DNA from: Saccharopolyspora gloriosae
Lineage (GTDB): Bacteria; Actinomycetota; Actinomycetes; Mycobacteriales; Pseudonocardiaceae
Direction of reading: 5' to 3'
DNA: 64,000 bases
NCBI RefSeq assembly: GCF_022828475.1
Contig: NZ_CP059557.1
Span: forward strand, 5,813,470-5,877,469
Part shown: in pieces, positions 15,952 to 57,223 of the stretch
Layout: each line of letters begins with the position of its first letter
How positions within the stretch are numbered: position 1 is the first letter of the stretch
Translations under genes and position numbers: made by a program
Notes under the pieces: model-generated
Databases searched by the model: none
What the model was told of the DNA's origin: nothing
What the model saw: the letters and a program-made list of their open reading frames with translations, nothing else

Positions 15952-15998
15952 GTGAACGGACCGTTCGTCCAAACAGCTTGGGCGAACGGTCCGCTCAC
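15952..15998. repeat. Family A 47-bp dyad, copy A1
   Basis: First of five copies filling the 697-bp dinG-bioY gap. It has 21-nt arms with a 5-nt loop (ACAGC). The right arm carries GGGC in place of GGAC, and CGCTCAC in place of CGTTCAC. It begins 18 bp after the dinG stop. Confidence 0.95.
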
Positions 15999-16117
15999 CT
16001 CACCTGAGGGGCTTCGCGTTTTTCCGACAGGTGTTGGTGAGGTGCCTCACCGCCCCGCCCCACCGAGCCGCCGGTGCCCCCGAGCCGCAACGCGCCGCCG
16101 CCCAACTCAGGTTTCAA

Positions 16118-16164
16118 GTGAACGGACCGTTCGTCCAACGAGATTGGACGAACGGTCCGCTCAC
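16118..16164. repeat. Family A 47-bp dyad, copy A2
   Basis: Loop CGAGA. Sequence-identical to A4 across all 47 bp. A2 with its downstream flank (TCACTCCACTG, CCAAGATCACCGC, GCCTG-CCACGCCGAAA) is repeated 200 bp later at A4, so this part of the gap arose by local duplication. Confidence 0.95.
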
Positions 16165-16224
16165 TCCACTGACTCCGCCCCCACCAAGATCACCGCAGCC
16201 TGCCCACGCCGAAAGCCGATCCGA

Positions 16225-16271
16225 GTGAACGGACCGTCCGTCCAACGAGATTGAGCAAACGGTCCGCTCAC
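16225..16271. repeat. Family A 47-bp dyad, copy A3 (degenerate)
   Basis: Most diverged copy. The left arm has CGTCCGTCC for CGTTCGTCC and the right arm TTGAGCAAACGG for TTGGACGAACGG, giving several unpaired positions. Loop CGAGA. Confidence 0.85.
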
Positions 16272-16317
16272 TTCAAAACGCCCACCCATCGCGGCACCTG
16301 CTCCGGCTCCGATCCGA

Positions 16318-16364
16318 GTGAACGGACCGTTCGTCCAACGAGATTGGACGAACGGTCCGCTCAC
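16318..16364. repeat. Family A 47-bp dyad, copy A4
   Basis: Identical to A2, exactly 200 bp downstream of it. Confidence 0.95.
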
Positions 16365-16436
16365 TCCACTGGCTCCGCTCCCGCCAAGATCACCGCGGCT
16401 TCACCGCAGCCTGTCCACGCCGAAAAGCTGATCCGG

Positions 16437-16483
16437 GTGAACGGACCGTTCGTCCAACGGGATTGGGCGAACGGTCCGTTCAC
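16437..16483. repeat. Family A 47-bp dyad, copy A5
   Basis: Loop CGGGA, right arm TTGGGCGAACGG. The outer end is GTTCAC, fully complementary to GTGAAC. It lies about 150 bp upstream of the bioY start. Confidence 0.95.
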
Positions 16484-16631
16484 TCCGGAAGCAGGCTGCC
16501 GGGGGTGAGTCGGGGGTCACTTCGCGCTGGGCAGGGGTTGTTCGGTGTCCACAATGTGGTGGGAGTCTTTCTGTTCCTGCCGGTGAGCCGGGTACGTTCG
16601 CAGCGACCTGTGATCGGCGTGAGGAGTCGTC

Positions 16632-17204
16632 GTGCCTGGACAACGCACCGCCCAACCGGCCGCTGACCTGGCCAGGACAGTGGTGTTCGCGGCGTTCATC
16701 GCCGTGCTCGGCTTGTTCCCTGGCCTGTTCATCGCGGGAGCGGCGGTGCCGGTGGTGCTGCAGAACATGGGACCGCTGCTGGCGGGCAGCATCCTCGGCG
16801 CCCGCCGGGCGGGTATGTCGGTGCTGCTGTTCCTGGCGCTGGTGGCGATCGGCCTGCCGCTGCTGTCGGGCGGGCGCGGCGGCATCGCCCCGTTCGCGGG
16901 ACCTAGCGGCGGGTTCGTGCTGGGCTGGCTGCTGTCGGCGGTCGTGGTGGGGTTGATCGTGCAGCGCGGGCTGCCGCGTCCCGGTCTGCCGTTGTTGCTG
17001 CTGGCGAACCTGGCGGGCATTGCCGCGGACTACCTCGTCGGCATCCCCTACTGGGCGGCTTTCACCGGTGATCTCGGCGCGGCGGCGGTGCAGTCGCTGG
17101 TGTTCCTGCCTGGCGATGCGGTGAAGTTGGTCGCGGTGTCGCTGGTGGCGGTGGCGGTGCACCGTGCGCTGCCGGCGGCCACTTCCCGCCCGGCCGGGAG
17201 CTGA
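16632..17204 (+). CDS. bioY: Biotin transporter substrate-binding subunit BioY
   Basis: A 190-aa S component of an energy-coupling factor (ECF) importer with six predicted helices. The BioY signature appears as GLFPGLFIAGAAVPVVLQNMG, RGGIAPFAGPSGGFVLGW and YLVGIPYWAAFTG. The start is GTG 16632 with GAGGAG 6 nt upstream. It heads a five-gene run that ends with the ECF ATPase and T subunits, so it is biotin uptake equipment. No biotin repressor site is recognised upstream. Confidence 0.93.
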   Translation: MPGQRTAQPAADLARTVVFAAFIAVLGLFPGLFIAGAAVPVVLQNMGPLLAGSILGARRAGMSVLLFLALVAIGLPLLSGGRGGIAPFAGPSGGFVLGWLLSAVVVGLIVQRGLPRPGLPLLLLANLAGIAADYLVGIPYWAAFTGDLGAAAVQSLVFLPGDAVKLVAVSLVAVAVHRALPAATSRPAGS

Positions 17205-17257
17205 GCACGCGCCTGAAACCCGGCGGCACCACGCGAATCACCCCGAAAGGACTCCGA

Positions 17258-18607
17258 ATGATCCCGCCGATCTTGGGCGACGGTCCGCTCACGGCCGAGG
17301 TGGCGGCCGCGGGGACCACGCTCACCGGCGCGGAGGTGCTGGCCCGCGCGCACGGTGCCGCGCGGCGGCTGGAGGGAGTGACGCGGGTCGCGGTGGACGA
17401 ACCGGACCCGGTGCATCGGCTGTGCTGGCTGCTGGGCGCGGACTTGGCGGGCGCGGCGACGCTGATCGTGGATCCGGAGTGGTCGCGAACAGAAGCGGTC
17501 CTGGCCGAAGCAAGACCTGCCGCGACCGTCTCCGGCGCTCCCCCGGAGGCGGATCCCGTCGAGCCGCGAGGTGACGACCGCACGCCCTTCTACCTCCCCA
17601 CGACTTCCGGCAGCGGCGGCGCACCGAAGGTGCTGGCGCGCACCCGCCGGTCGTGGCTGTTGAGCTTCACGGCGCTGGAGGTCGAGCTGCGCCGGGACGA
17701 CTCGGTGCTGATCCCCGGCCCGTTGAGCTCCTCGTTGTTCCTGTTCGGAGCGCTGCACGCCCTGCACCAGGACCGCGCGGTGCGGCTCCTGCCCAAGTGG
17801 TCGGCGACCGCAGCCGCCGAGCTCTGCCGGGATGCGACCGTGGTGCACCTCGTTCCCGCGATGCTCGCCGCACTGGTGTCGGTGTGGGAGCGCCGGCCTG
17901 AGCTGCGCGCGGCCTGCCGTCTGCGGCTGGTCGTCTGCGGTGGGGCGGGAGTGGACGGCGACCTGGAGCAGCGGCTGCGGCGGCTGCTGCCGGGCTGCGA
18001 ACTGCTGGAGTACTACGGCTCGGCGGAGCACTCGCTGATCGCCTCGCGCCGCGGCGAGCCGCGCCTGCGGCCGCTGGTGGACGTCGACGTTCGGGACATG
18101 GCAAGGAATTCGCTGCCCGCGGAGAACGTGGGTGTGCTGTGGGTCCGCTCAGAACTCGCCTTCGACGGCTACCTGCGCGACGGCGTGCTCGACGCTGCGG
18201 AACAGGGCTGGTCCAGCGTCGGGGACCGCGCGGTGCGCCACGAGGACGGCACCCTGAGCGTGCTGGGCCGAACCGGTTCCACGATCAGCACCGGCGGCAG
18301 CCTCGTCGTCGCCGAGGAGGTCGAATCCGCGTTGCGAAGTTCCGCCGGTGTGCGGGACGTGGTCGTGGCGGCAACCCCGCATCGGAGGCTCGGGGCGCTG
18401 GTGACCGCTGTGCTGGAAGTCGACCGCCGGGCCTGCCTGACGCGGGCGGAGTTGCGCGCCGGGACGCGGCATCTGGAACCGGCGAAGCGGCCGCGACGTT
18501 GGCTCACGATGCCCGCCCTGCCCCGCACCGGCTCCGGCAAACCCGCGCGCGCCGAGATCGCTGAGGGACTGCGCGACGGCACGCTCGACGCGGAGGAGCT
18601 GGCGTGA
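17258..18607 (+). CDS. AMP-forming acyl-CoA synthetase / ligase-like protein
   Basis: Class I adenylate-forming enzyme, 449 aa, shorter than the usual 500-550. The P-loop is PTTSGSGGAPKVLART, motif A5 is YYGSAEHS, the hinge region is SVGDRAVRHEDGTLSVLGR, and the C-terminal catalytic Lys is in PRTGSGKPARAEI. It should activate a carboxylic acid to acyl-AMP and probably acyl-CoA. Its stop overlaps the start of the thiolase-like gene (GTGA), inside the bioY-ECF operon, which suggests a biotin- or pimelate-related acid. The substrate is unproven. Confidence 0.82.
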   Translation: MIPPILGDGPLTAEVAAAGTTLTGAEVLARAHGAARRLEGVTRVAVDEPDPVHRLCWLLGADLAGAATLIVDPEWSRTEAVLAEARPAATVSGAPPEADPVEPRGDDRTPFYLPTTSGSGGAPKVLARTRRSWLLSFTALEVELRRDDSVLIPGPLSSSLFLFGALHALHQDRAVRLLPKWSATAAAELCRDATVVHLVPAMLAALVSVWERRPELRAACRLRLVVCGGAGVDGDLEQRLRRLLPGCELLEYYGSAEHSLIASRRGEPRLRPLVDVDVRDMARNSLPAENVGVLWVRSELAFDGYLRDGVLDAAEQGWSSVGDRAVRHEDGTLSVLGRTGSTISTGGSLVVAEEVESALRSSAGVRDVVVAATPHRRLGALVTAVLEVDRRACLTRAELRAGTRHLEPAKRPRRWLTMPALPRTGSGKPARAEIAEGLRDGTLDAEELA

Positions 18608-19728
18608 ACGATCGTGCTCCCGTGGTGATCGCCGCCCGTCGCAGCCCGATCGGCGAGGTCGGCGGTGTGCTGCGGAACCTGACCGCCGAACGGCTCGCCG
18701 CGCCCGTGCTCGCTGCGGTGGTGGCCGACTCGGGGCTGGACGCGGTGGACGACGTGCTGCTGGGCAACGTGATGGGGCCTGGCGGGAATCCGGCTCGGGT
18801 GGCGGCGTTGCGCGCCGATTTCGGGTTCGAGGTGCCGGGCATGACGGTGGACCGGCAGTGCGCCAGCGGCCTCAGTTCGATCATCACGGCGGCCGCGATG
18901 CTGCGCGGCGGCGCCGGTGAGCGCTATCTGGCGGGTGGAGTGGAGAGCGCATCGACCGCGCCGTGGCGGGCGCATCGGCCGCGTTCGGCGGGTGAACCGC
19001 CGCGGTTCTACTCCCGCGCGCCGTTCGCGCCCGCCGATCTCGGTGATCCGGACATGGGGCCTGCCGCCGACCTCATCGCCGCCGAGGCCGGAGTGCGCCG
19101 CGAGCGGCAGGACGAGTTCGCGGCGCGCAGCCACGCCCGCGCTGTCGCTGCGCAGGACGCGGGCCGGTTCGACGCGGAACTGGTCGACGTGGGCGGCGGG
19201 CGCGACGAGCGGCCCCGGCGCGGATTCGGTGTGCAGCGGCTGGCGCGTTTCCCACCCGCGTTCACCTCCGACGGCACCGCGACGGCCGCGAACTCCTGCG
19301 GTGTCAGCGACGGAGCCGCGGCGGTGCTGATCACCACGGAGCGGGAGCGTCGCCTGCTGGGCGTGCCGGGGTTGCGCTTGGTCGCCGAGGCCACGACGGG
19401 CGTGGACCCGAATCGTCTCGGGCTGGGTGCGGTGCCCGCGCTGCGCCAGGTGCTGCGGAACCACCCGGCGCCGGAGCTCGTCGAGTTCACCGAGGCCTTC
19501 GCCGGACAGGTGCTGGCCTGCACCGACGCGGCCGGGATCGACGAGCGCAGCGTGAGCCTCGACGGCGGTGCCATCGCGCTCGGACACCCCTGGGGAGCGT
19601 CGGGCGCGGTCCTGGTGGTGCGATTGTTCAGCCGCATGGTGCGCGAGAACGGGCCGCGCACCGGGGTGGCCGCCCTGTCCTCCGGTGGCGGGCTGGGCGT
19701 GGCGACGGTGTGGGAGCGAGTGGATTGA
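18604..19728 (+). CDS. Thiolase-family protein lacking the second catalytic cysteine
   Basis: A 374-aa thiolase-fold protein. The nucleophile is Cys86 in VDRQCASGLSS, and the active-site His is His328 in GGAIALGHPWGASGA. The second catalytic Cys, normally CxGGG, is replaced by Ser359 (ALSSGGGLG), and the NEAFA loop reads TEAFA. It starts GTG 18604, overlapping the ligase stop by 4 bp, and ends overlapping the ATPase start. Thiolases cleave or form 3-oxoacyl-CoA. With these substitutions, activity may be altered towards condensation, decarboxylation or another reaction, or lost. Confidence 0.85.
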   Translation: MNDRAPVVIAARRSPIGEVGGVLRNLTAERLAAPVLAAVVADSGLDAVDDVLLGNVMGPGGNPARVAALRADFGFEVPGMTVDRQCASGLSSIITAAAMLRGGAGERYLAGGVESASTAPWRAHRPRSAGEPPRFYSRAPFAPADLGDPDMGPAADLIAAEAGVRRERQDEFAARSHARAVAAQDAGRFDAELVDVGGGRDERPRRGFGVQRLARFPPAFTSDGTATAANSCGVSDGAAAVLITTERERRLLGVPGLRLVAEATTGVDPNRLGLGAVPALRQVLRNHPAPELVEFTEAFAGQVLACTDAAGIDERSVSLDGGAIALGHPWGASGAVLVVRLFSRMVRENGPRTGVAALSSGGGLGVATVWERVD

Positions 19729-20399
19729 TCGAGTTCGAGGACATCGCGCACGCCTACGGCGAGCACTCGGTGCTGGACGGCGTCAACCTGCGGCTCGGTG
19801 AGAAGCGGGTCGCGTTCGTCGGCGCGAACGGCTCCGGCAAGTCCACGCTGGCACGCATGATCAACGGCCTGGTGGCGCCGACGAGCGGCCGGGTCCTGGT
19901 CGATGGGATCGACCCGGCGCGCGATGGACGGGCGGTGCGCAAGCGCGTCGGCTTCGTGTTCACCAACCCCGACAGCCAGATCGTGATGCCGACCGCGGGT
20001 GAGGACGTGGCGTTCTCGCTGCGCAGGCATGGCATCCGGAAGGCCGAGCGGGAACGCCGGGCCGCCGAGGTGCTGGCCCGGCACGGTCTGGCCGGTTACG
20101 CCGAACACCCGGCGCACCAGCTCTCCGGCGGGCAGAAGCAGCTGCTGGCGCTGTGCTCGATGCTGGTGCTGGAACCGGACGTGCTGGTCTGCGACGAGCC
20201 GACCACGTTGCTGGACCTGCGCAACAAGCGGCATTTCATGGAGCTGCTGCAGGAACTGCCGCAGCAGGTGGTGCTGGTGACCCACGATCTGCACTTGCTG
20301 GACGGGTTCGACCGGGTCGTGGTGCTCGACCAGGGCCGGATCGCGGCCGACGACGCGCCCGCCGCGGCGCTGTCGCACTACCGGGAGCTGATCGAGTGA
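19725..20399 (+). CDS. bioM: ECF transporter ATPase (BioM-like)
   Basis: ABC ATPase of the cobalt/biotin ECF class, about 224 aa. Walker A is GANGSGKSTLARM, Q-loop is TNPDSQIVMPTAGEDVAF, the ABC signature is LSGGQKQLLAL, Walker B is VLVCDEPTTLLD, and the switch His is in VTHDLH. The start is taken as TTG 19725, overlapping the thiolase TGA (TTGA) and beginning IEFEDIAHAYG. GTG 19710 is an in-frame alternative. The symbol follows the bioMNY naming, since BioY is in the same operon. Confidence 0.9.
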   Translation: MIEFEDIAHAYGEHSVLDGVNLRLGEKRVAFVGANGSGKSTLARMINGLVAPTSGRVLVDGIDPARDGRAVRKRVGFVFTNPDSQIVMPTAGEDVAFSLRRHGIRKAERERRAAEVLARHGLAGYAEHPAHQLSGGQKQLLALCSMLVLEPDVLVCDEPTTLLDLRNKRHFMELLQELPQQVVLVTHDLHLLDGFDRVVVLDQGRIAADDAPAAALSHYRELIE

Positions 20400-23141: not shown

Positions 23142-23939
23142 TCACCTGGTTCCGGACGGGTCCGGCCACTGGGCGAGAACGGTGACGGTGCCCGGGTCGA
23201 TCTCGGTGAAACCCGCGTCCCGAACCGCCGCGACACCGTTGCGGCGCCAAGCGGTCTCCGCGTCATCGCCAGGCAGCAACCGTCGCCAAGTCGCCCCGTC
23301 GGCGACGCGGACCGAACACGGCAGACCGGCCGCCGACCACCGCGCCACCTCGTCAGCGCGCCCCTCCCCGTGCAGCAACGCCGCCAGGAACATCGTGGCG
23401 TGACCGACCTGAGCAGCGGATTTCCCCGCACTCATCGCCACATCCGGATTCAGCCACAGCGCCGGCGCCGACTCCGCAGGCGGGCCTGGCTCGTCCGCGT
23501 CGAGCTCGCTGCCGGAGATCTGCAGCCGCGTCAGCTCCTTCGGCATGTCCGCCACCCGCGACGGCAGGAACGCCCGCACCTCGGCGCCGTCCACCTCCAC
23601 CGTGCGGCCCGGCAACTCCTGCACCGCCGCCCAATGCGCGCCCCGCGCCCGCCGCGAGACCTTGCGGATGCGACCGGAGGTCCAGTGGTGCACCGACTCG
23701 TGCCATTCGCCGCCGGGCTCAGCCCGCTCGTCCAGGCACACCGCGAGCGCGGCCGCCGCCGCTGCCTCCAGCAACGCCGAACGCCGCGGCGGCTCGGCGC
23801 GTTCGATGCGCAGCACCATCGGCATCAGCACGACCTGCTCGGGATCCTCGTCCGAGGTGTCCGCGGTCAACTCCGTCGGCATCGCCAGCCAAGACGCGTA
23901 CCGGGTCAGCAAGGGATTCAGCACAGCGGCATCAAGCAC
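23142..23939 (-). CDS. Peptidyl-tRNA hydrolase PTH2-domain protein
   Basis: A 265-aa protein whose C-terminal half (residues ~150-265) resembles archaeal/eukaryotic-type Pth2. Matching features are MSAGKSAAQVGHATMFLA, where PTH2 proteins have GKxAAQxxHA, and a C-terminal IDPGTVTVLAQWPD. The N-terminal half (residues 1-140) is an actinobacteria-specific helical region of unknown role. GTG 23939 begins VLDAAVLNPLLTRYASWL. A true tRNA-recycling role is uncertain, since bacteria use the unrelated Pth1. Two family A repeats lie directly upstream. Confidence 0.75.
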   Translation of the reverse strand: MLDAAVLNPLLTRYASWLAMPTELTADTSDEDPEQVVLMPMVLRIERAEPPRRSALLEAAAAAALAVCLDERAEPGGEWHESVHHWTSGRIRKVSRRARGAHWAAVQELPGRTVEVDGAEVRAFLPSRVADMPKELTRLQISGSELDADEPGPPAESAPALWLNPDVAMSAGKSAAQVGHATMFLAALLHGEGRADEVARWSAAGLPCSVRVADGATWRRLLPGDDAETAWRRNGVAAVRDAGFTEIDPGTVTVLAQWPDPSGTR

Positions 23940-24017: not shown

Positions 24018-24064
24018 GTGAACGGACCGTTCGTCCAATGCCGTTGGACGAACGGTCCGCTCAC
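24018..24064. repeat. Family A 47-bp dyad, copy A6
   Basis: Loop TGCCG; outer end GCTCAC. Lies in the 386-bp gap between the divergent PTH2 and P450 genes. Confidence 0.95.
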
Positions 24065-24136: not shown

Positions 24137-24183
24137 GTGAACGGACCGTTCGTCCAGTGGGATTGGGCGAACGGTCCGTTCAC
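24137..24183. repeat. Family A 47-bp dyad, copy A7
   Basis: Left arm ends CCAG instead of CCAA, loop TGGGA, right arm TTGGGCGAACGG. About 140 bp upstream of the P450 start. Confidence 0.95.
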
Positions 24184-24325: not shown

Positions 24326-25561
24326 ATGGAACCCTCCACCTGCCCGTATCCGCTCGATCCCACCGGGAGCGAACTGCACGCGGAGGCGGCGCGGCTCAGC
24401 GCGCGGGGTGCCGCGACCCGCGTGTCGCTGCCCGGCGAGGTGGAGGCGTGGCTGGTCACCGACCCGGAAGTGCTCCGCTCCCTGTTCGCCGACCCTCGCG
24501 TTTCCAAGGACCCGCACCGGCATTGGCCCGGGTACCGCGACCTGCCGCCGGACTGGCCGCTGCACACCTGGGTCTCGATGCGGAACATGTTCAACTCGCA
24601 CGGCGCCGATCACCGGAGGCTGCGAGCACTGATCGCGCCTGCGTTCACCACGCGACGCATCCGCGGCCTGCGCCCGCACATCGAGCGGATCACCGCGGGC
24701 CTGCTCGACGAGGTCGCCGCCGCGCGACCGGGGGTCGCGATCGACCTGCGCGAGCACTTCGCGAACCCGCTGCCCGTCGCGGTGATCAGCTCGCTGCTCG
24801 GCATCACCGACCGCGACGCCCTGGACGAGATGCGCCGGCTCGTGGAGACGTTCTTCAGCACCACGACGTCACCGGAGCAGATGGTGGCCGGGATGGAGAC
24901 CCTGTACCGGTTGTTCGGCGAGCACGTCGCGTCGTGCCGGCGGAACCCGGGCGATGACCTGACCAGCGATCTGCTGGCGATGCGGGACGAGGACGGCACG
25001 CGCCTGTCGGACGGTGAGCTGACCGACACCCTGATGCTGATGTTCTCGGCGGGCCACGAGACGACCGTGAACCTGCTCGGACACGCCATCGCCGAACTGC
25101 TCACCGAACCTCGGCATCTGGCCGGGCTCCGAGCGGGCGAGCTGAGCTGGGACGCCGTCGTCGAAGAAACCTTGCGCTGGCAACCACCGCTCGCGAATTT
25201 GCCGCTGCGCTTCGCCACCGAGGACGTCGCGCTGCCCGGTGGCGGCACGATCCGGGCAGGCGAACCGATCGTGGCGGGCCTGCTCGCGGCCAACCGGCAC
25301 CCCGCGCACTACCCCGACGGGGACCTCTTCGACCCGGCCCGCGCCGATACCGCGCACCTCAGCTTCGGCCACGGCGTGCACTTCTGCGTCGGCTCCCAGC
25401 TCGCCCGCCTGGAAGCCCGCATCGCGTTGTCCGCGCTGTTCGACCGCTTCCCCCGGCTGACCGCGGCGTTCAGCGAACTGGAGCAACGACCGTCGTTCAT
25501 CTCCAACGGCCACGTCGACCTGTTCGCGATCCCGACCCCCGAAGCAGCCGGGGCGGAGTGA
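24326..25561 (+). CDS. Cytochrome P450
   Basis: A 411-aa soluble bacterial P450. The I-helix oxygen-binding motif is FSAGHETTVNLLGH, the ExxR motif is EETLRWQPP, and the haem-binding loop is FGHGVHFCVGSQLAR with Cys354. No ferredoxin or ferredoxin reductase gene is adjacent, so redox partners must be elsewhere. It is flanked by family A repeats on both sides; the downstream copy A8 begins one base before the TGA, so the repeat supplies the stop codon. The substrate is unknown; the overall look is of CYP107-like hydroxylases. Confidence 0.93.
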   Translation: MEPSTCPYPLDPTGSELHAEAARLSARGAATRVSLPGEVEAWLVTDPEVLRSLFADPRVSKDPHRHWPGYRDLPPDWPLHTWVSMRNMFNSHGADHRRLRALIAPAFTTRRIRGLRPHIERITAGLLDEVAAARPGVAIDLREHFANPLPVAVISSLLGITDRDALDEMRRLVETFFSTTTSPEQMVAGMETLYRLFGEHVASCRRNPGDDLTSDLLAMRDEDGTRLSDGELTDTLMLMFSAGHETTVNLLGHAIAELLTEPRHLAGLRAGELSWDAVVEETLRWQPPLANLPLRFATEDVALPGGGTIRAGEPIVAGLLAANRHPAHYPDGDLFDPARADTAHLSFGHGVHFCVGSQLARLEARIALSALFDRFPRLTAAFSELEQRPSFISNGHVDLFAIPTPEAAGAE

Positions 25562-25604
25562 ACGGACCGTTCGTCCAATGAGATCGGACGAACGGTCCGT
25601 TCAC
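25558..25604. repeat. Family A 47-bp dyad, copy A8 (contains P450 stop codon)
   Basis: Loop TGAGA, right arm TCGGACGAACGG. The TGA in its leading GTGAAC is the P450 termination codon. It lies between the P450 gene and the convergent SRPBCC gene. Confidence 0.95.
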
Positions 25605-29678: not shown

Positions 29679-30434
29679 GTGCAGCGAGCCTTGTTCCACC
29701 GGCACCGGCCCACGCGGACCGCACCGCCCGGCCGCGCGTGGTCGCGGACCGCGCCCGGCGGCCCGGCGGCGGCCGAACCCCGTCCCCATCGAGCGGGCCG
29801 GAGCTCGCCGGACAGCGGCGGTCGCGCGCCGCGACGGATGCTGATCGGCGCGGCGCTGGCCTGCGGACTCGTGCTCACCGGCTGCGGTCCCGCTCCGCAG
29901 CCCGCGCCGCCTCCCGCCACGGACACCTCCGAGGCGCCCGGCACGGACGACGCGGACCTCGATGAGTTGGAGGACGGGTCGCACACGAGCACCGATCAGG
30001 AGTTCGCGAGTCAGCTGCTGGCGCACCACCAGCAGCTGCTGGAACTGACCGACTTGGCGGCGGAGTCCGGTGATCCGGAGGTGGCCGCCTTCGCGGCGCG
30101 GCTCAGGCAGGACCGGCAGGCCCAGGCCGACGAGCTGACCGGGTGGCTCACCGCCACCGAGGGGCTTCCTTCGGGCAGCGCGCCCGAGGACCTGGTCGCC
30201 GAGCCGTCGCAGCTGCCCGGGATGCCTAGCGCCGAGCTGCTGGCGCGGCTGCGGCAGGTTCGCGGCGCGGAGTTCACGGCCTCGTTCAAGGAGGCCATGA
30301 CGGGCCTCTACGACGGCGGTGAGCAGTTGGCACAAGCGGAACTGGAGGAGGGCTCGGCGCCTGAGATGCGTTCCTTGGCGGAGCGGGTCCTCGACGGTCA
30401 CGACACCGAACGGGCCGACCTCACCGCCCTCTGA
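29679..30434 (+). CDS. DUF305 lipoprotein
   Basis: Predicted lipoprotein with a lipobox LVLTGCG after a hydrophobic stretch (MLIGAALACGLVL), then a Pro/Ala/Asp-rich linker and a DUF305 domain. The domain begins DQEFASQLLAHHQQLLELTD with the conserved His pair, and repeats as EFTASFKEAMTGLYDGGEQL. DUF305 proteins are often linked to metal handling. The start is uncertain: GTG 29679 has a GGGAGAGG ribosome site but gives about 50 residues before the signal peptide, while ATG 29838 gives a normal signal peptide without a ribosome site. Confidence 0.82.
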   Translation: MQRALFHRHRPTRTAPPGRAWSRTAPGGPAAAEPRPHRAGRSSPDSGGRAPRRMLIGAALACGLVLTGCGPAPQPAPPPATDTSEAPGTDDADLDELEDGSHTSTDQEFASQLLAHHQQLLELTDLAAESGDPEVAAFAARLRQDRQAQADELTGWLTATEGLPSGSAPEDLVAEPSQLPGMPSAELLARLRQVRGAEFTASFKEAMTGLYDGGEQLAQAELEEGSAPEMRSLAERVLDGHDTERADLTAL

Positions 30435-30462
30435 ACCCACTCGAACCTTGGTCGTCCCGATT

Positions 30463-30588
30463 CGATTTCGCGAGAAATCGACTCGCCCCAACCCCTCGCC
30501 TACGGCGCAACCCCAGGTGAACGAACACTTCGACCGGCCTGTGCTGCGTCCGGGCGCGGTCGGGCTCGGTCGATTTCTCGCGAAATCG
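30463..30588. mobile_element. 126-bp element bounded by 18-bp inverted repeats (MITE-like candidate)
   Basis: CGATTTCGCGAGAAATCG at 30463-30480 is the exact reverse complement of CGATTTCTCGCGAAATCG at 30571-30588, and each is itself a 7-bp stem with a 4-nt loop. The 90 bp between them code for nothing recognisable. The geometry resembles a miniature inverted-repeat element, but no target-site duplication is obvious and only one copy is present in this window. The terminal hairpins could equally be paired regulatory sites. Confidence 0.5.
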
Positions 30589-30594
30589 CAGGAG

Positions 30595-30622
30595 TTGTCC
30601 ACAGGTGGACGAGTTGTCCACA
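30595..30622 (+). promoter_or_regulatory. Two consensus DnaA boxes in tandem
   Basis: TTGTCCACA occurs at 30595-30603 and again at 30614-30622, same orientation, with 10 bp between, so starts are 19 bp apart. This matches the actinobacterial DnaA box consensus exactly. They lie about 100 bp upstream of the short-chain dehydrogenase gene, immediately after the 126-bp inverted-repeat element. Confidence 0.55.
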
Positions 30623-30647
30623 GGATGGCGGGACTCGGCACGACTAG

Positions 30648-30693
30648 ACCTACCGGAAGTAAGCTACCGCCGGTAGGCTACTTCGGAGTAGGT
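30648..30693. promoter_or_regulatory. Nested dyad upstream of the SDR gene, operator candidate
   Basis: A 13-bp central palindrome CTACCGCCGGTAG (30664-30676) sits inside a longer imperfect dyad beginning ACCTACCGG and ending GGAGTAGGT. It lies 28 bp before the ATG of the dehydrogenase, where a repressor would block transcription. No regulator is encoded next to it. Confidence 0.5.
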
Positions 30694-30720
30694 GATGTCG
30701 AACCAAGCTCGGGAGTGCGC

Positions 30721-45194: not shown

Positions 45195-45243
45195 GTGAAC
45201 GTTCACTTCGCCCGATCCCGCCGGTTCAAAGGAGACATTCACC
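45195..45243. repeat. Family B dyad repeat, copy B3
   Basis: Begins GTGAACGTTCACTTCGCCCG and ends GGTTCAAAGGAGACATTCAC. With B4 it occupies the 331-bp gap between the helicase start and the xylulokinase end. Confidence 0.6.
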
Positions 45244-49166: not shown

Positions 49167-49420
49167 TGCCGAGCGGACTCGGATGAACGGCGCTCGCGGA
49201 GCAGTCCGCCGCGCGGTTCGAACTCGGTGCGGCAGTTCTTCGAAGCAATACTTCGAGGCAATAGGAAACGGCCAGTGCTCGTTCGAACGGACGGGCTGAG
49301 CCGGGAGACTTTCGCGCAAGTTCCCCCGATGGCGGGTTCCGGCCCGGACGGGTCCCCGCGATCATCGTCGGCGACCAGGCCGTGATCATCATCGGCCGCG
49401 TCCGCGACGAGGGGCTTCAC

Positions 49421-50464
<1,044 letters not shown>

Positions 50465-50531: not shown

Positions 50532-50578
50532 GTGAACGGACCGTTCGTCCAACCGGATCGGGCAAACGGTCCGCTCAC
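50532..50578. repeat. Family A 47-bp dyad, copy A9
   Basis: Loop CCGGA, right arm TCGGGCAAACGG with two weakened pairs, outer end GCTCAC. It lies between the convergent rutA and methyltransferase genes. Confidence 0.95.
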
Positions 50579-50615: not shown

Positions 50616-50662
50616 GTGAACGGACCGTTCGTCCAACGGGATCGGACGAACGGTCCGCTCAC
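50616..50662. repeat. Family A 47-bp dyad, copy A10
   Basis: Loop CGGGA, right arm TCGGACGAACGG, outer end GCTCAC; 37 bp after A9 and 25 bp from the stop codon of the methyltransferase. Confidence 0.95.
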
Positions 50663-50687: not shown

Positions 50688-51536
50688 TCACGGGCGCCTG
50701 GCGACCAAGAAGGTTCGTTCGGTTCGGACCGTGAGGTCGTCGCGGTGCTCGAGTCCGCCGGGACCGTCGGCGAGCAGGGTGTCGAGCGCCGCCACGTCGT
50801 CGGTGTCGAGCCGAGCAGCCAGGAACGGCCGCATGCGGCTCAGCGCCGCCTCGGCGTAGCGGGCGGTTCCGGCGGGGAGCGGTGCGGTCAGGTGGATGTC
50901 GGACGTCCGCTGCGCCGCCACGGTGAAACCGGCTTCGGTCAGCAGTTCTCCCCAGTCCGCGCTGATGTGCGGGAGGAGTTCGGCGCGCATCTGGGCCAGC
51001 AGTTCGTGACAGCGCGCTTCGAGTCCGGAACGACCGAAGCCGAGATCGTCGGGCAGGAAGCGCGGGAAGCCTTCGAGCTCCGCCACCGCCAGCAGGCCAC
51101 CCGGCCGCACCGCGGCGAACACTTCGGACAGGACGCGAGCGGGATCGGACAGGTGGTGCATCGACGCCGAGGCCCACACCAGGTCAACGGGGTCATCGAG
51201 CTGTGGGAACGATTCGTCGAGGTCCGCCTGCACGGTGCCGATCCTGTCGCCCACGCCTCGCTCGGCGGCTTTCGCGGCGAGGTGTTCCAGCATCGGAGCG
51301 GAGGCGTCCACGGCGGTCGCCGTCGCCTGCTCGAAGCGGTCCAGCAGAGCGAAGGTGCCGGTACCGGAGCCGCTGCCGAGGTCGAGGATGCGCCGGACGG
51401 GCGGTTCGGCCAGGTCCCGCAGCGTGGCGATGATCTCGGACAGGTGTTCGTGGAGCACTTCGGCGTCGAGGTCGAGCATCGCGATCTGCGTGGACTCGTC
51501 GGCTTCGGTGGAGTGCTGGTGTTCGTGGTGTGCCAT
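50688..51536 (-). CDS. Class I SAM-dependent methyltransferase
   Basis: A 282-aa Rossmann-type methyltransferase with SAM motif I RILDLGSGSGTGTFALLDRF, motif II region ATAVDASAPMLEHLA, and motif IV DLVWASASMHHLSDP. The N-terminus is His-rich (MAHHEHQHSTE), possibly metal-binding. It is divergent from the XRE-cupin regulator, with only 47 bp between the two starts, so that regulator probably controls it. The substrate is unknown. Confidence 0.88.
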   Translation of the reverse strand: MAHHEHQHSTEADESTQIAMLDLDAEVLHEHLSEIIATLRDLAEPPVRRILDLGSGSGTGTFALLDRFEQATATAVDASAPMLEHLAAKAAERGVGDRIGTVQADLDESFPQLDDPVDLVWASASMHHLSDPARVLSEVFAAVRPGGLLAVAELEGFPRFLPDDLGFGRSGLEARCHELLAQMRAELLPHISADWGELLTEAGFTVAAQRTSDIHLTAPLPAGTARYAEAALSRMRPFLAARLDTDDVAALDTLLADGPGGLEHRDDLTVRTERTFLVARRP

Positions 51537-52213: not shown

Positions 52214-52224
52214 CCGCAGGACCG

Positions 52225-52273: not shown

Positions 52274-52288
52274 TGACTCGCCCGCTGA

Positions 52289-52837
52289 TCACACTCGTGG
52301 TGGCCAGGGCGCCCAGGTGAGCTCGCCGTTCGGGAGTCGGGTGCGGAGTGATTCGAGGCGGTCGCCGTCGACTCGGCCCCGGCTGCGACTCGAACGACCG
52401 TCCATCGACCGGGACGTCTCGTACCACCAGCCGTCGTCGTAGATGAGGCGCTCGGTCACGGCTCCGGCCGTGATGGCGGTGAGCCACCAGCGGAGCTCGT
52501 CCGCGCACCTCTCGAACGACTCCTCGCAGGCATCGCATCCGCACACCGGAAGGTGACCGTCACTGCCTCCCGCGACCAGCACGCGCAACCCGGGGAAGGC
52601 GTCGAAGACGACCGTCACCGACGCCGCGGACGGATCGTCGGGAGTCAACGTCACCGCCCGGGCGGGGTCCGTGCCGTGCGGGTCGGTTTCGGTGGATTCC
52701 GTTCGCCGCACGGCGAATCGGCGCTCGTGGTCGGCGAGCAGGTCGTCGGCGAACTCGTGCAGCGGGCGGAAGCGCTCGGCATTGGTGACCCGCCCGTACG
52801 CCTCCGTCGGCGGACCGTCCTCTCCCCAGGTGTCCAT
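52289..52837 (-). CDS. Conserved hypothetical protein
   Basis: 182 aa from ATG 52837 (MDTWGEDGPPTEAYGRVTNA). It contains a Cys pair, CGCDACEES (residues ~97), a Trp-rich stretch LRWWLTAITAG ... DDGWWYETS and a Trp-Pro C-terminus. It looks like a soluble actinobacterial protein (possibly DUF6226, which I cannot confirm). Codon usage is typical of the region. It is divergent from the ahcY riboswitch region. Confidence 0.65.
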   Translation of the reverse strand: MDTWGEDGPPTEAYGRVTNAERFRPLHEFADDLLADHERRFAVRRTESTETDPHGTDPARAVTLTPDDPSAASVTVVFDAFPGLRVLVAGGSDGHLPVCGCDACEESFERCADELRWWLTAITAGAVTERLIYDDGWWYETSRSMDGRSSRSRGRVDGDRLESLRTRLPNGELTWAPWPPRV

Positions 52838-53013
52838 GTCGGCATGATCTCCGGGCGAGTTGGGCGGCGGCAAACGAATTTCGCCGATCCTGCCGGAACG
52901 TTGCACCGCGTTGAACGGGCGCCGAACGGAACTCTCGGCGAACCGCTTCCGCCGATCTGGAACCTTCTTCGAAGGCGATTTTCGATTTCCTTCGATCGAG
53001 CCATTACCCCGCG

Positions 53014-53043
53014 TTGACACGGCTCGAAAGTTCTTGGCATAGT
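53014..53043 (+). promoter_or_regulatory. Promoter upstream of the ahcY leader
   Basis: TTGACA (53014-53019) and CATAGT (53038-53043) are separated by 18 bp. Transcription would start near 53050, about 45 bp before the riboswitch candidate and 450 bp before ahcY. Confidence 0.6.
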
Positions 53044-53095
53044 TGGTCTCGCTGTTGAGATTCACGTGCGAGCGCCGATCATCGGCGCGGTCATC

Positions 53096-53164
53096 GCCGA
53101 GAGGCGCTGCGACGGATTCGGTCCGCCACGCTCGACTTTGGCTCACCACGCAAGGGCGCCTCCA
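53096..53164 (+). ncRNA. S-adenosylhomocysteine (SAH) riboswitch candidate
   Basis: The core sequence CCGAGAGGCGCTGCGACGG resembles the conserved SAH aptamer start (cGAGGMGCGNUGCRA). Helices can be drawn: P1 CGAG (53098) with CTCG (53131-53134); P2 CGGA-TTCGG-TCCG (53113-53125); P4 GAGGCGC (53101-53107) with GCGCCTC (53156-53162), 7 bp perfect. The CCACGCTCG after P2 matches the CCAGGCUCG block apart from one base. It lies between a good promoter and ahcY, the classic SAH-induced target. Assigned by eye, not by covariance model. Confidence 0.65.
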
Positions 53165-53172
53165 CAAGGGAG

Positions 53173-53328
53173 GTGAACTGGAACTTCGCCCTCGGCACGT
53201 CTCCGGCTCCGACACGGCATGATTCCGCGTCCTCGATGGCGATCGCGGACGCCGACGAGCCGTCCCCTGCCGTGAAAGCCGTTCATCGAACTGGCTCAGC
53301 ACCGTTCCAGAGCGGCCGCACCGAATAA
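53173..53328 (+). other. Possible leader ORF after the riboswitch
   Basis: A 51-codon frame from GTG 53173 to TAA 53328 follows AAGGGAGG, an almost ideal ribosome site, but with no spacing to the GTG. The product (VNWNFALGTSPAPTRHDSAS at its start) matches nothing I know. It may be a leader peptide or only a ribosome-binding or anti-terminator element within the 330-nt stretch before ahcY. The rest of the leader shows no other feature. Confidence 0.3.
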
Positions 53329-53497
53329 CTACCGGCGATTCTTCGGGCTGCGCGAATTCGATCGCGCTGCCGCGATACTGGGCGCCCCGGCAAGGCGATC
53401 CACTTCCGGCGATGAAACACGTCCACATCTCAGCGAATGCCCATTCGACTTCTTTCAGGCGCTGTTCCCGGAACCGATCTCAACACGAGAGGAAACC

Positions 53498-54955
53498 ATG
53501 AACGACAAGTTCCGCACCCTCGACGGCATCGACTTCGCCGTCGCCGACCTGTCCCTGGCCGCCTCCGGGCGCACCCAGCTGCGGCTCGCCGAGCACGAGA
53601 TGCCGGGGATCATGGCGGTGCGCAGGGATTTCGCGGGCGCGAAACCGCTGCGCGGGGCGCGCATCGCCGGGTCGCTGCACATGACCGTGCAGACCGCGGT
53701 GCTCATCGAAACCCTCGTCGAGCTCGGCGCGGAAGTGCGCTGGGTGTCGTGCAACATCTTCTCCACCCAGGACGAGGCGGCCGCCGCGGTCGTCGTCGGC
53801 GCCGGCACCCCCGAGGCCCCCACGGGCAGTTCGGTGTTCGCGTGGAAAGGCGAAACCCCCGCCGAGTACTGGTGGTGCACCGACCAGCTGTTCCGGTTCA
53901 GCGGCGGTCGCGGCCCGACGATGCTGCTCGACGACGGCGGGGACGCGACGTTGCTCGTGCACAAGGGAGTCGAGTTCGAACGCGCCGGCGCGGTGCCGCG
54001 GCCCGTGGCCGGAGATCCGGAGGACCACCGCCTCCTGCTCGCCACGCTGGCCGCGAGCATCGAGCGGGATCCTCGGCGGTTCACAGCCATGGCCGAGCAG
54101 ATCCGAGGCGTCTCCGAGGAGACCACCAACGGCGTCAAACGCCTGTACAAGCTCGCCGCCGACGGTGAGCTGCTGTTCCCGGCGATCAACGTCAACGACT
54201 CGGTGACGAAGTCCAAGTTCGACAACAAGTACGGCATCCGCCACTCGCTGCCCGACGGCATCAACCGGGCGACCGACACGATGCTCGGCGGCAAAACCGC
54301 CGTCGTCTGCGGGTACGGCGACGTCGGCAAAGGCGCCGCGGAAGCGTTGCGCGGCCAAGGTTCCCGCGTCGTGGTCACCGAGATCGACCCGATCTGCGCG
54401 CTGCAGGCGGCGATGGACGGATTCCAGGTCGCGGCGCTGGATTCGGTGGTCTCCACCGCCGACGTGTTCATCACGACCACCGGCGGCTTCGGCATCATCA
54501 CGGCTTGGCACCTGGCGGCGATGAAGCACAACGCGGTGGTGGGCAACGTCGGGCACTTCGACGACGAGATCGACATGGCCGGACTGGCCGCGACTCCCGG
54601 GATCCGCAAGCAGGAGATCAAACCGCAGGTCCACGAGTGGACCTTTCCCGACGGGCACGCGGTCATCGTGCTCTCCGAAGGGCGCCTGCTGAACCTGGGC
54701 AACGCGACCGGCCACCCCAGCTTCGTCATGTCGAGCTCGTTCACCAACCAGGTGCTGGCGCAGATCGAGCTGTTCACCAAGCCCGGTGAGTACGGGAAAT
54801 CGGTGCACCTGCTGCCGAAACACCTCGACGAGAAGGTGGCGCGACTGCACCTGGACGCGCTCGGAGTGGAGCTGACCGAGCTCACCAAGCAGCAGGCCGA
54901 ATACCTCGGAGTGGACGTCGCGGGGCCGTACAAACTGGACCACTACCGGTACTGA
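53498..54955 (+). CDS. ahcY: Adenosylhomocysteinase (SAH hydrolase)
   Basis: A 485-aa NAD-dependent enzyme splitting S-adenosylhomocysteine into adenosine and homocysteine, removing the inhibitor of methyltransferases. Substrate domain motifs are [36 protein letters not shown] and [11 protein letters not shown]. The NAD fold is [21 protein letters not shown]-terminal KLDHYRY contains the Lys and Tyr that close over NAD. ATG 53498 has GAGAGGAAA upstream. A putative SAH riboswitch lies in its long leader, so expression should rise with SAH. Confidence 0.96.
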
Positions 54956-54962
54956 ACGGGCC

Positions 54963-54999
54963 GGGGTTCGTGCGCGCCGAGTCGGTGCGCACGAACCCC
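54963..54999. terminator. Bidirectional hairpin after ahcY
   Basis: Perfect 13-bp stem GGGGTTCGTGCGC / GCGCACGAACCCC with an 11-nt loop, between the convergent ahcY and nuclease genes. Confidence 0.8.
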
Positions 55000-55009
55000 G
55001 CTGTGATGG

Positions 55010-56167
55010 CTAGCTTTCGCAGGCGGTGCCGTCGCCGTCTCGGTCGAGGTGGGAGCCGTATCCGGGCTCACCTCGATGCAGCGGGGCGGCTCCGGCGCTC
55101 TTGGCCGCCGTGCAGTTCTCGTAGTAGGCGCTGTTGCTGTCGTCGGACGAGTCCGATTCGGATTCCGAAGTCTCCGGGCTCGATTCCGGGCTCGGGTTCG
55201 GCTGCGGGTCGGGTTGCGGCTTCGGGCGCGGTTTCGGGCTCGGATCTCCCGATTCCGGCGCACCGAAGTACGGGCACCCGGCCCAAACGCCGACGTTCCG
55301 GGACTGCGCCTGGTACTGCTCGGCCGAGATCTCGGCCCAGCGCGTGGTGTTCGGGGAGTCGGCCCGGGACTTGGCGAACCCGTCCGCCACCATCGACTTG
55401 TTCGTGAACACGCCGGATTCGTTCCAGACGTGCAGCAAGAATCGGCCGTCCGAGTCCTGCAGCTGCCGGTCCTGCCGAACCCACACCTCGCTCCCCACCG
55501 GAGCCAACTCCCGCAGGTGATCCGCGGCTTCCCGGTGAGAGCACTGGCCGGGATCGGTGGCTTCGATGTTCAGCAAGCGCACGCGGACCGTGGCGGTGCT
55601 CGGGAAGATCGTTCCGGTTGCGGGCGGGGACAGCTGGATCTCGTCGCCGTCGTCGACCGACACGACCACGGCCTGCTGCGCGTCACTCGGTGCGCCCGCC
55701 GGGGCGACCGGTGACGGCTGGGGCGGAATCGACGCGGGCGCAGCCGGCACCGGTGTCGCGGGCGCGGCGGCGGCTTGCCGCGAGTTGTCCTCCGGCGCGT
55801 CCGTCGTGGTGAACGGGGCGAACACGAACGAGAGGGCCATCAGCGCGACCCCTGCCCCGGCTCGCGCCAAGGAACCGCGAACCGCGACGTTGTCCCGCCT
55901 TCCCACCCGCCGCGCCCCGAAGACGACGCCCCAGCTCAGCACGCCGACACCCGTCAGGAACGCCAAGCCGATCAACGCCTCGGCCAGCGGAGGCCCAGGA
56001 TCGACGGTGAGTGCGAGGGCGAACAGCGTGTAGCCGATCCCGAAGCGAACCCAGAAGCGCCGCGTCACGGCCGGATCTCCCTGGCCGCGGTGGAAAAACC
56101 CGTACCAGGCACCCCAGAGCATCAGCCCCAGGCCTCCGCACCCCAGGAAGGGGACCAAATCCTGCAC
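55010..56167 (-). CDS. Membrane-anchored SNase-like nuclease with excalibur domain
   Basis: 385 aa from GTG 56167. Four N-terminal helices (residues ~5-120) are followed by a Pro/Ala linker and a staphylococcal-nuclease-like domain (residues ~168-300: VRVRLLNIEATDPGQC, DSDGRFLLHVW). An acidic Ser/Pro-rich linker leads to a C-terminal excalibur calcium-binding motif, HLDRDGDGTACES. Arginines matching the SNase catalytic pair (VRLLNIE and DGRFLL) are present. It probably acts outside the membrane on extracellular nucleic acid; activity is unproven. Confidence 0.85.
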   Translation of the reverse strand: MQDLVPFLGCGGLGLMLWGAWYGFFHRGQGDPAVTRRFWVRFGIGYTLFALALTVDPGPPLAEALIGLAFLTGVGVLSWGVVFGARRVGRRDNVAVRGSLARAGAGVALMALSFVFAPFTTTDAPEDNSRQAAAAPATPVPAAPASIPPQPSPVAPAGAPSDAQQAVVVSVDDGDEIQLSPPATGTIFPSTATVRVRLLNIEATDPGQCSHREAADHLRELAPVGSEVWVRQDRQLQDSDGRFLLHVWNESGVFTNKSMVADGFAKSRADSPNTTRWAEISAEQYQAQSRNVGVWAGCPYFGAPESGDPSPKPRPKPQPDPQPNPSPESSPETSESESDSSDDSNSAYYENCTAAKSAGAAPLHRGEPGYGSHLDRDGDGTACES

Positions 56168-56466
56168 TGCTGCTCCAGTTCACGCGGCGTGGGACGCCCG
56201 AGCGGGCGCCGAAACAGGACGCACCGTACTGGACTGATCACTTGGGGTGTTCATCGGTTTCGGCGAACGGAGCATCACCGTTGGGACACCTGGCCGCGCC
56301 GGTTCCTGAGGGCGCTCTGCCGACCGCACGCGGCGGCTGCACACCCCCTGGTCACAGCCTCCACCCCCCTCCGGCGGTGAGCAGGCGTCAGCGACCACCT
56401 CACGTTCCACCCGAGCCGAACGTCTGCTGAGAGGCGCCCGCCGCTCGATCGAGCACCTGGGATGGA

Positions 56467-56513
56467 GTGAACGGACCGTTCGTCCGATCTAGTTGGACGA
56501 ACGGTCCGCTCAC
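56467..56513. repeat. Family A 47-bp dyad, copy A11
   Basis: Left arm CCGA for CCAA, loop TCTAG, outer end GCTCAC. It is the first of three copies at ~120-bp spacing in the 648-bp gap after the nuclease gene. Confidence 0.95.
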
Positions 56514-56587
56514 TCACTCCCCCACGGGGGCCAGGCTCGGCTGGGGTGAGCGACGGCTCCGCTCGGCCACCGAGAGCCTGGGGTGGA

Positions 56588-56634
56588 GTGAACGGACTGT
56601 TCGTCCAACAAGGCTGGACGAACAGTCCGTTCAC
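56588..56634. repeat. Family A 47-bp dyad, copy A12 (compensatory change)
   Basis: The left arm has GGACTGTTC where other copies have GGACCGTTC, and the right arm has the matching GAACAGTCC for GAACGGTCC, so the pair changes from C-G to T-A and the stem is kept. Loop CAAGG. Confidence 0.95.
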
Positions 56635-56704
56635 TCGGGGAACCCGAGCGGCACCGCCCGGCGAGCACCCGGGGCGCTCGGCGGCCATGCCCGATCGGGA
56701 GTGG

Positions 56705-56751
56705 GTGAACGGACCGTTCGTCCCATCCCGTTGGACGAACGGTCCGTTCAC
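56705..56751. repeat. Family A 47-bp dyad, copy A13
   Basis: Left arm ends CCCA, loop TCCCG. Fully complementary outer ends. It lies 65 bp upstream of the frameshifted Ada-type gene. Confidence 0.95.
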
Positions 56752-56815
56752 TCCCACCCACCTCTGGCGCGGGGCGGGTGGGAGCCGGCTGTGCGACAGG
56801 GGAGGGCGAGGGTTG

Positions 56816-57069
56816 GTGAGCAGGATGTACACGCTGCTGGATGTGCGCGGGGAGCCGTACTCGAGCGCGGTGCCGGGGCGGTCGGCGGGCATCGGCGGGG
56901 TCGGATCTACGGGCGACTGGACTGCCGGGCCGCGCTGCGCGCGATCGCCCGTGGCGGTTACGTGACGCAGCGGGTGTTCTTCGCCGACGAAGCCACGGCC
57001 CGCGCGGCCGGATACCGCCCGTGCGCAGTGTGCCTGCCCGAGCAGCACCGGCGGAGCGGGATCCAGTGA
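56816..57069 (+). pseudogene. Ada-type zinc-binding domain protein, frameshifted
   Basis: Two frames together encode one small Ada metal-binding-domain protein. GTG 56816 or ATG 56825 gives MYTLLDVRGEPYSSAVPGR, then the homology continues in another frame as GGHRRGRIYGRLDCRAALRA and YVTQRVFFADEATARAAGYR with CAVCLPEQHR to TGA 57069. The four Cys-type zinc residues (LDC, PCAVC) survive. One base appears missing near 56882-56886, after the CGG of PGR. It precedes alkB, tag and alkA, which fits an alkylation-response role. A sequencing error is possible. Confidence 0.75.
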
Positions 57070-57112
57070 ACGGACCGTTTGCCCAGTCTTGTTGGACGAA
57101 CGGTCCGTTCAC
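57066..57112. repeat. Family A 47-bp dyad, copy A14 (contains stop codon)
   Basis: The leading GTGA includes the TGA that ends the Ada-type frame. The left arm is CGTTTGCCCAG, loop TCTTG. Confidence 0.95.
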
Positions 57113-57176
57113 TCACTTCCCGATCGGGCGCCCGGTGCAGGCGGAGAGTCAGCTTGATCGTCGAGAGCCGGTTTGG

Positions 57177-57223
57177 GTGAACGGACCGTTTGCCCAGTCC
57201 TGTTAGACGAACGGTCCGTTCAC
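57177..57223. repeat. Family A 47-bp dyad, copy A15
   Basis: Left arm CGTTTGCCCAG as in A14, loop TCCTG, right arm TTAGACGAACGG. A14 and A15 share left-arm variants seen nowhere else in the window, so they are probably a recent duplication. Confidence 0.95.

Follow-up and report, generated by a model that had tools for sequence, protein, structure and literature searches.

A 64,000-nucleotide stretch of the Saccharopolyspora gloriosae chromosome (G000:C1:5813470-5877469, called the window here) contains 15 copies of a 47-bp palindromic element that recurs, in about 200 copies grouped into 85 intergenic arrays, across the sampled parts of this single-contig, 6.88-Mb chromosome (G000 denotes its genome). 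We propose that these copies are probably recognition elements in duplex DNA rather than RNA hairpins, forming phased arrays of half-sites for a putative protein at the ends of transcription units. We observed the location of the copies, their fixed length, the lack of covariation between their arms within genomes, the phasing of neighboring copies in four genomes, and turnover in copy number at conserved sites. From these patterns we infer protein binding and, with it, what the protein may be and do.

A first-pass annotation made from the window sequence had described 15 copies of 47 bp at five sites, and all are present where it placed them, each with 21-nt arms (many of them imperfect) and a 5-nt center. 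The arm pattern gave 20 matches in the window, representing 14 of the 15 copies (six matched on both strands), and none in 100 dinucleotide shuffles. The fifteenth copy, at 56588, lies outside the pattern, carrying GGACTG...CAGTCC in place of the GGACCG/CGGTCC that had been thought invariant. Nor does the loop vary freely, as had been supposed: among 184 distinct copies the center is biased, with TCCCG (35) and TCTCG (21) leading, counted in either orientation. The length of 47 bp stands, but the palindrome often continues for two more bases per side as GA...TC, found in 8 of the 15 window copies, to reach about 51 bp; each of these flanking bases occurs in 78-88% of 104 co-directional copies. 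In the 184 distinct copies the first four arm pairs are G-C (180), T-A (180), G-C (161), and A-T (182), so that the ends mostly read GTGA...TCAC, and some copies end in GTCA or TTGAC. The element can be described as two inverted half-sites, GTGAACGGACCGTTCGTCCAA, with centers 30 bp apart, each holding a 13-bp palindrome, GAACGGACCGTTC. This short palindrome occurs 227 times within elements and 7 times outside them in the sampled stretches, five of the seven being in shortened or lengthened elements. The sequence pattern favors treating the two arms as half-sites in their own right.

The 12-mer GTGAACGGACCG occurs 156 times forward and 131 times in reverse (287 in total) in the G000 chromosome, where its reversed control gives 0 and 1, respectively. 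A weight matrix applied to the window and 59 further stretches (705 kb around pattern matches) gave 203 matches, 198 of which score at least 40; most of the counts below rest on these 198, and 192 were placed between two called genes. The copies align without gaps at 47 bp, which is also the width of the matrix. When GTGA-type hairpins of 43-51 bp were sought independently, 189 of the weight-matrix copies were recovered, every one of them 47 bp long; the exceptions in length are one 49-bp relative and a few shortened ones. The stretches from G000 and three copy-rich relatives (G001, G002, and G003) were mostly picked for holding copies, so background counts describe their neighborhoods, and genes were called with our own codon-usage caller and were not curated. 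The annotation would have been refuted by a lack of further copies or by copies within genes; further copies are numerous in the genome and its relatives, and in the G000 stretches none lies inside a called gene, so the observation stands.

Neighboring elements proved to be helically phased. Their start-to-start distances in G000 cluster at about 62, 73, 85, 95, 107, and 118 bp and take no values at 65-72, 75-82, or 100-104 bp. The best period was 11.25 bp in this genome (bootstrap 10.9-11.6; R 0.54; n = 108) and again when G000, G001, and G003 were pooled (bootstrap 11.0-11.45; n = 267). This comb places 90 of 107 G000 spacings within a quarter period, where half would be expected. With one spacing per array, the periodicity exceeded the 99.9% level of the null in G000 (n = 65; R 0.576 versus 0.368) and in G003 (n = 26; R 0.605 versus 0.570), and none of 2,000 jittered sets reached the raw periodicity of G001 or G003. 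G002 served for confirmation, with the period of 11.25 bp and a phase of 62.3 preset from the other three genomes: the mean cosine was 0.407 (n = 81; u 5.18), a value that none of 5,000 jittered sets attained. Part of the G002 spacings had been seen before this test, but they were not used for the period or phase, and the 60 spacings wholly new to the analysis gave a mean cosine of 0.477 (u 5.23). Leave-one-out values of u were 6.67 for G000, 5.53 for G001, 5.17 for G002, and 2.77 for G003; because orthologous arrays share ancestry, the results from the four genomes are only partly independent. Stop-to-copy distances, copy-to-start distances, and intergenic lengths, examined as controls, showed no such period.

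Tandem duplication was considered as the sole source of the comb and rejected, since the comb persists where spacers resemble each other no more than shuffled sequences do: it holds (u 7.52) in a set of 184 spacers, each matching its closest counterpart at just 0.68-0.75, and shuffled spacers reach a similar identity (median, 0.70). Certain arrays are nonetheless recent tandem duplications with identical spacers. When orthologous arrays of G000 and G001 were compared, only 4 of 37 G000 spacings recurred exactly. Others had changed and stayed on the comb (107 versus 95, 96, 97, and 95; 96 versus 84, 83, and 84), and one set did not stay fully on it (86 versus 100, 97, and 81). Relaxed DNA has about 10.5 bp per turn, and fits to looping of lac DNA in vivo gave helical repeats of 11.60 and 11.08 bp per turn, and 10.95 without HU (parts of PMC1762422); the comb period lies inside this in vivo looping range of 10.95-11.6 bp.

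The 85 arrays, which hold one to six elements each, lie between co-directional (42), convergent (36), or divergent (7) genes. Among intergenic regions of at least 51 bp in the same stretches, arrays occupy 36 of the 86 that are convergent, 42 of the 201 that are co-directional, and 7 of the 106 that are divergent (convergent versus divergent: odds ratio, 10; p 6e-9). Copies follow stop codons closely, with a median distance of 34.5 bp and 92 of 114 within 100 bp, and stand farther from start codons (median, 147; 13 of 56 within 100). The annotation had placed the copies at gene ends or gene starts, and its first term describes most of them; the divergent arrays include those at 24018 and 56467 of the window. 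In five cases, including window copy 25558, the GTGA of the element provides the TGA stop, and the same offset between GTGA and stop was found in 3 of 11 copies examined from two other genera.

Copy density is uneven along the chromosome: 62 of the 198 copies fall in about 3% of it (G000 about 5.65-5.875 Mb, including the window). The orthologous segments of G001 (687-918 kb) and G003 (5.22-5.42 Mb) are also dense.

The position of the arrays at gene ends would also be expected of terminators or mRNA 3'-end stabilizers, in which each copy would be a transcribed 21-bp hairpin and clusters would give redundant, bidirectional termination without a U-tract. Such a role is consistent with the short stop-to-copy distances, the enrichment in convergent gaps, the GC-rich hairpin found after the stop codon as in intrinsic terminators, a predicted RNA fold averaging -32 kcal/mol, and the published idea that hairpin clusters terminate transcription (parts of PMC8355165). 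If an RNA hairpin were under selection, however, changes in one arm would be expected to be matched in the other. We oriented the arms on the leading strand and dealt out one arm anew as a shuffled null. The G000 copies had 3,387 Watson-Crick cells versus 3,410 (standard deviation, 8.3) after shuffling, and 18 double Watson-Crick changes versus 28.6; no excess of pairing between arms was found in any of the four genomes. An initial count of mismatches in the gene sense showed a G.U bias (106 G.U versus 67 A.C), but this bias was set aside because it follows the replication strand, not the gene strand, and is explicable by mutation skew. With replichores assigned from GC skew (sign change mostly near 3.7-3.9 Mb), sense G.U exceeds A.C in 18 of the 21 arrays at leading-strand genes and the reverse holds in 1, whereas at lagging-strand genes A.C exceeds G.U in 13 of 17 arrays and the reverse holds in 3; of the decided arrays, these majorities are 18 of 19 and 13 of 16. 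A mutation bias such as that of the spacers can explain mismatches of this kind. The copies lack a U-tract: of 104 co-directional copies, only 1 has at least 5 T among the 8 nt that directly follow the hairpin (at most 4 in the other 103). None of nine consensus terminators between 15900 and 26200 overlaps a copy, and Rfam had no match in the window at the gathering score. RNA models also do not predict 11.25-bp phasing. The evolution of the sequence thus does not support the mRNA-end or attenuation structure that the first-pass annotation had listed as an option, and we regard a terminator or stabilizer as unlikely.

The spacers themselves are strongly skewed on the leading strand (GC, 0.137; TA, 0.199) relative to copy-free intergenic DNA (0.043 and 0.032), as if they were more exposed or less constrained.

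The element is not confined to one species. A search of 100 related genomes gave matches in 10 of them. Counts are high in G000 to G003 and lower in G004 and G005; G010 has 17 forward matches and 18 in reverse, and G024, G026, and G040 have one to three matches each. Copy positions in G001 to G003 were obtained with a pattern covering a single orientation of the core, for G001 and G002 among the matches listed. The ends GTGAACGGACCGTT combined with the fixed length of 47 bp had a match in 11 of 297 genomes of the family and in 4 of 46 genera. A scan of named genomes, whose listed matches include chance ones in unrelated taxa, found among them the element in several Saccharopolyspora species, and Halosaccharopolyspora lacisalsi and Rhodococcus spelaei with 47-bp versions of it. 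Two other genera share the outer 14 nt at the same length: in G010 and R. spelaei they are unchanged, the inner stem is different yet again self-complementary, and nearly all listed copies are 47 bp.

The history of the arrays bears on two further explanations. One is a mobile element resembling repetitive extragenic palindromes (REPs) or miniature inverted-repeat transposable elements, mobilized or amplified in trans by some enzyme, with gene-end position and phasing reflecting which places accept or tolerate new copies, as when a looped complex gives rise to insertions or duplications. The other is a neutral relic, an old repeat family tolerated at gene ends whose palindromy is kept by template-switch (quasipalindrome) repair. 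Whole arrays have been gained or lost between species, as mobility would have it: the first array of the window is absent from G003, and a five-copy G003 array is absent from G000 (window 30434-30720) and from G001. In alignments of empty sites (six sites, two or three species) blocks were gained or lost, with flanks too diverged for target-site duplications to be called. The near-identical tandem units of certain arrays, the identical ends in other genera, and a lineage-specific related palindrome, family B, with 31 pattern matches in G000 and none in G001 to G003, also fit mobility. A REP-like element mobilized by a REP-associated tyrosine transposase (RAYT) was another option of the annotation and is not supported by the genomes: the Y1 domain PF01797 has no match in G000 to G003 (only Y1 transposases were searched for), and it has one match in G004 and two in G005. 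Site occupancy is moreover largely stable. G001 is collinear with the window region in inverted order at about 88% identity, and the mapped intergenic regions of G000 and G001 comprise 29 with copies in both, 2 with copies only in G001, none with copies only in G000, and 110 with copies in neither. For G003 the corresponding numbers are 14, 3, 2, and 87. These comparisons use stretches chosen partly for their copies, so that losses in relatives are under-sampled outside contiguous blocks. For orthologous sites farther out (G004, G005, G006, G008, G010, G026, and G040) the neighbors of the anchor gene differ or fall outside the sampled stretch, and only G002 was informative.

Within these stable sites, copy number is unequal at 22 of the 29 shared with G001. 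This turnover would suit a neutral relic, as would the strand-biased substitutions, which the skew of the spacers can explain. Neighboring elements, though, are 89% identical, compared with 84% for any two, while in 31 of 45 consecutive spacer pairs the similarity does not exceed 0.70, a value near the 99% level for pairs drawn at random. Elements are thus conserved next to spacers that have diverged to near randomness, which a mobile element would need selection or conversion to explain. For a relic, the phasing kept across changing spacings in four genomes is a further difficulty, and template-switch repair predicts a covariation between arms that is absent within genomes. We therefore hold the mobile element to be quite unlikely and the neutral relic to be very improbable.

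The protein-binding dyad, also among the annotation's options, is the one favored by the sequence evidence, because neighbors are helically phased and the arms appear to act as separate half-sites. A putative protein would bind the two half-sites of each 47-51 bp element as duplex DNA. With neighbors kept at whole-turn increments of 11.25 bp, bound proteins would hold a fixed rotational relation, and those on successive elements may contact each other and loop or wrap the DNA. Their placement at gene ends and between converging genes suggests that arrays may block or absorb transcription and the supercoils it generates, and they could form a sequence-specific nucleoprotein block or a supercoiling buffer at the ends of transcription units, by analogy with the gyrase-targeted REPs and bacterial interspersed mosaic elements (BIMEs) of Escherichia coli. 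A broader possibility, which we put forward tentatively, is a class of chromosome-architecture elements: arrays of paired half-sites held in register at the negatively supercoiled in vivo repeat of 11.25 bp, with a putative genus-level protein looping or wrapping DNA where converging transcription piles up supercoils. If so, the genome sequence would record the in vivo twist of DNA; spacing would be the trait under selection, and the sequence of the spacers and the number of copies would drift. RNA and DNA readings of gene-end palindromes are hard to separate, and the evolution of the sequence separates them here. The proposal predicts an undiscovered DNA-binding protein in Saccharopolyspora and makes a DNA-level function of gene-end palindromes directly testable.

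Several observations weigh against this proposal. Seven of the 85 arrays stand between divergently called genes. If duplex half-sites were all that counted, a palindrome so close to perfect would be unexpected, and between genera the inner stem has altered on both sides. With one spacing per array, G001 (n = 43; R 0.41) exceeds the 95% level of the null (0.341) and falls below the 99.9% level (0.422). Spacings between elements two apart are weakly periodic or not periodic, and the 25 spacings from loci of the named-genome scan are not significant by themselves (R 0.26 at 11.0; p 0.19). De-duplication of spacers at 0.68 identity, which also discards chance matches, weakens the comb: of 2,000 nulls, 18 reached it in G000 (n = 43), 120 in G001 (n = 30), 250 in G003 (n = 18), and 1 in all (n = 91). 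The 11 spacers with no relative at 0.68 or above had a mean cosine of 0.22, too few to decide. Finally, the absolute helical face is unreadable because it depends on the twist assumed: the peaks lie near n + 0.5 turns at 11.25 bp and near n turns at 10.6.

Operator autoregulation was tried as a route to the putative binding protein and gave no candidate: various unrelated regulators, and none in common, are encoded beside the divergent arrays (the flanks of five such arrays include TetR, LacI, PucR, and YbaB genes). A LexA box was also rejected. That box of the SOS response is a GAAC...GTTC dyad with four bases between its half-sites; the element shares the dyad with five bases between and lies at gene ends. 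A 2'-5' RNA ligase gene and the gene of a TetR regulator flank one of the few divergent sites (L038 3793-5766; G000 about 3.94 Mb), which holds a six-copy array.

The window copies are listed below, one per line and without strand assignment.

15952..15998, element copy 1 of 5 in array 1, located 17 bp past the stop codon ending a DEAD-box/Helicase_C_2 gene (13796-15934 +)
16118..16164, element copy 2 in array 1
16225..16271, element copy 3 in array 1
16318..16364, element copy 4 in array 1
16437..16483, element copy 5 in array 1, which is followed by a BioY gene (16683-17204 +)
24018..24064, element copy 1 of 2 in array 2, in the divergent gap between a PTH2-domain gene (23142-23924 -) and a P450 gene (24326-25561 +)
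24137..24183, element copy 2 in array 2, at a spacing of 119
25558..25604, single element in a convergent gap, with a GTGA through which the P450 gene gets its TGA stop (25559-25561)
50532..50578, element copy 1 of 2 in array 4, in the convergent gap between a luciferase-like monooxygenase gene (49382-50464 +) and a methyltransferase gene (50688-51536 -)
50616..50662, element copy 2 in array 4, at a spacing of 84
56467..56513, element copy 1 of 5 at site 5, in the divergent gap between an SNase/Excalibur gene (55010-56167 -) and a 2OG-Fe oxygenase gene (57352-58008 +)
56588..56634, element copy 2 at site 5, the variant with GGACTG...CAGTCC
56705..56751, element copy 3 at site 5
57066..57112, element copy 4 at site 5
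57177..57223, element copy 5 at site 5

Array 1, with spacings of 166, 107, 93, and 119, corresponds to six copies in G001 and to none in the 156-bp intergenic region of G003. The G001 orthologues of array 2 and of the 25558 site each have three copies (spacings of 118 and 109, and of 116 and 118, respectively), and that of site 5, where the window spacings are 121, 117, 361, and 111, has one. A scan of viral contigs with the P450 protein of the window found no relative.

Two other kinds of palindrome were noticed. Palindromes of family B are likewise about 47 bp long but differ in their arms and have the ends GTGAA...TTCAC; they occur for example at G000 1275990, 1732688, 2341095, and 3850559; window positions 45195 and 52162 look related to it, and hybrid palindromes joining it with the present element occur in G000. 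Outside G000, its pattern matched once in each of three other genomes among the 60 searched. A second dispersed palindrome has six copies in the sampled stretches, at G000 199040, 417423, 2195155, 2420901, 4856576, and 6220491 (loci L011, L015, L029, L030, L046, and L064). It forms a hairpin of about 110 nt whose 35-nt apical part, CTTTTTCCCTAGTGGCTCCGCCACGAGGGAAAAAG, is identical and whose outer stem exists in three compensated versions. The RNA fold of one copy has a z of -6.6, and in the four loci searched Rfam had no match where the palindrome lies.

Searches of the literature on REPs and helical phasing, and on palindromic repeats in Saccharopolyspora and actinobacteria, turned up neither the element nor its phasing among the matches listed, most subscription journals lying outside the search; full-text matches to the arm sequences, among those listed, had titles unrelated to the element. 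The parts of PMC3610266, PMC3733652, and PMC12306157 that were consulted mention neither the element nor such phasing, and those of PMC3733652 do not mention helical phasing of REPs.

Judged by its sequence and placement, the element is a gene-end palindrome that behaves like REPs and BIMEs without being a member of the REP family. Roles in supercoiling, termination, and mRNA stability have been proposed for such gene-end palindromes, which, like the element, are high-copy, clustered, and intergenic, lying downstream of genes in co-directional and convergent gaps (parts of PMC3733652). In the broad sense of many clustered, extragenic copies at gene ends, the element resembles a REP, and in both the terminal tetranucleotide can supply a stop codon, TAG in REPs and TGA here (parts of PMC3733652). 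We do not count it as one because the defining tag, the stem size, and the RAYT association differ: its ends are mostly GTGA...TCAC rather than GTAG/CGTC, its stem is 21 bp in 47 bp (about 51 with GA/TC) rather than 5-13 bp in a unit of 20-40 bp (parts of PMC3733652), and the four copy-rich genomes have no RAYT gene. The REP sites of E. coli are gyrase targets proposed to relieve transcriptional supercoiling and are likewise DNA elements at gene ends (parts of PMC3733652). Unlike them, the present element combines a two-half-site architecture with comb spacing. The E. coli REP sequence also differs from that of the element. Binding by gyrase, IHF, or Pol I is a mark of BIMEs. Hairpin-cluster intrinsic terminators share the placement of several hairpins downstream of a stop codon (parts of PMC8355165), but here there is one conserved sequence family, with no covariation within genomes and a mismatch bias independent of the transcript strand. 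The lac operators, finally, differ in that the copies described here lie at gene ends, number about 200, and would be bound by a putative protein; these operators share with the element the use of DNA sites whose spacing acts with an in vivo period of 10.95-11.6 bp (parts of PMC1762422).

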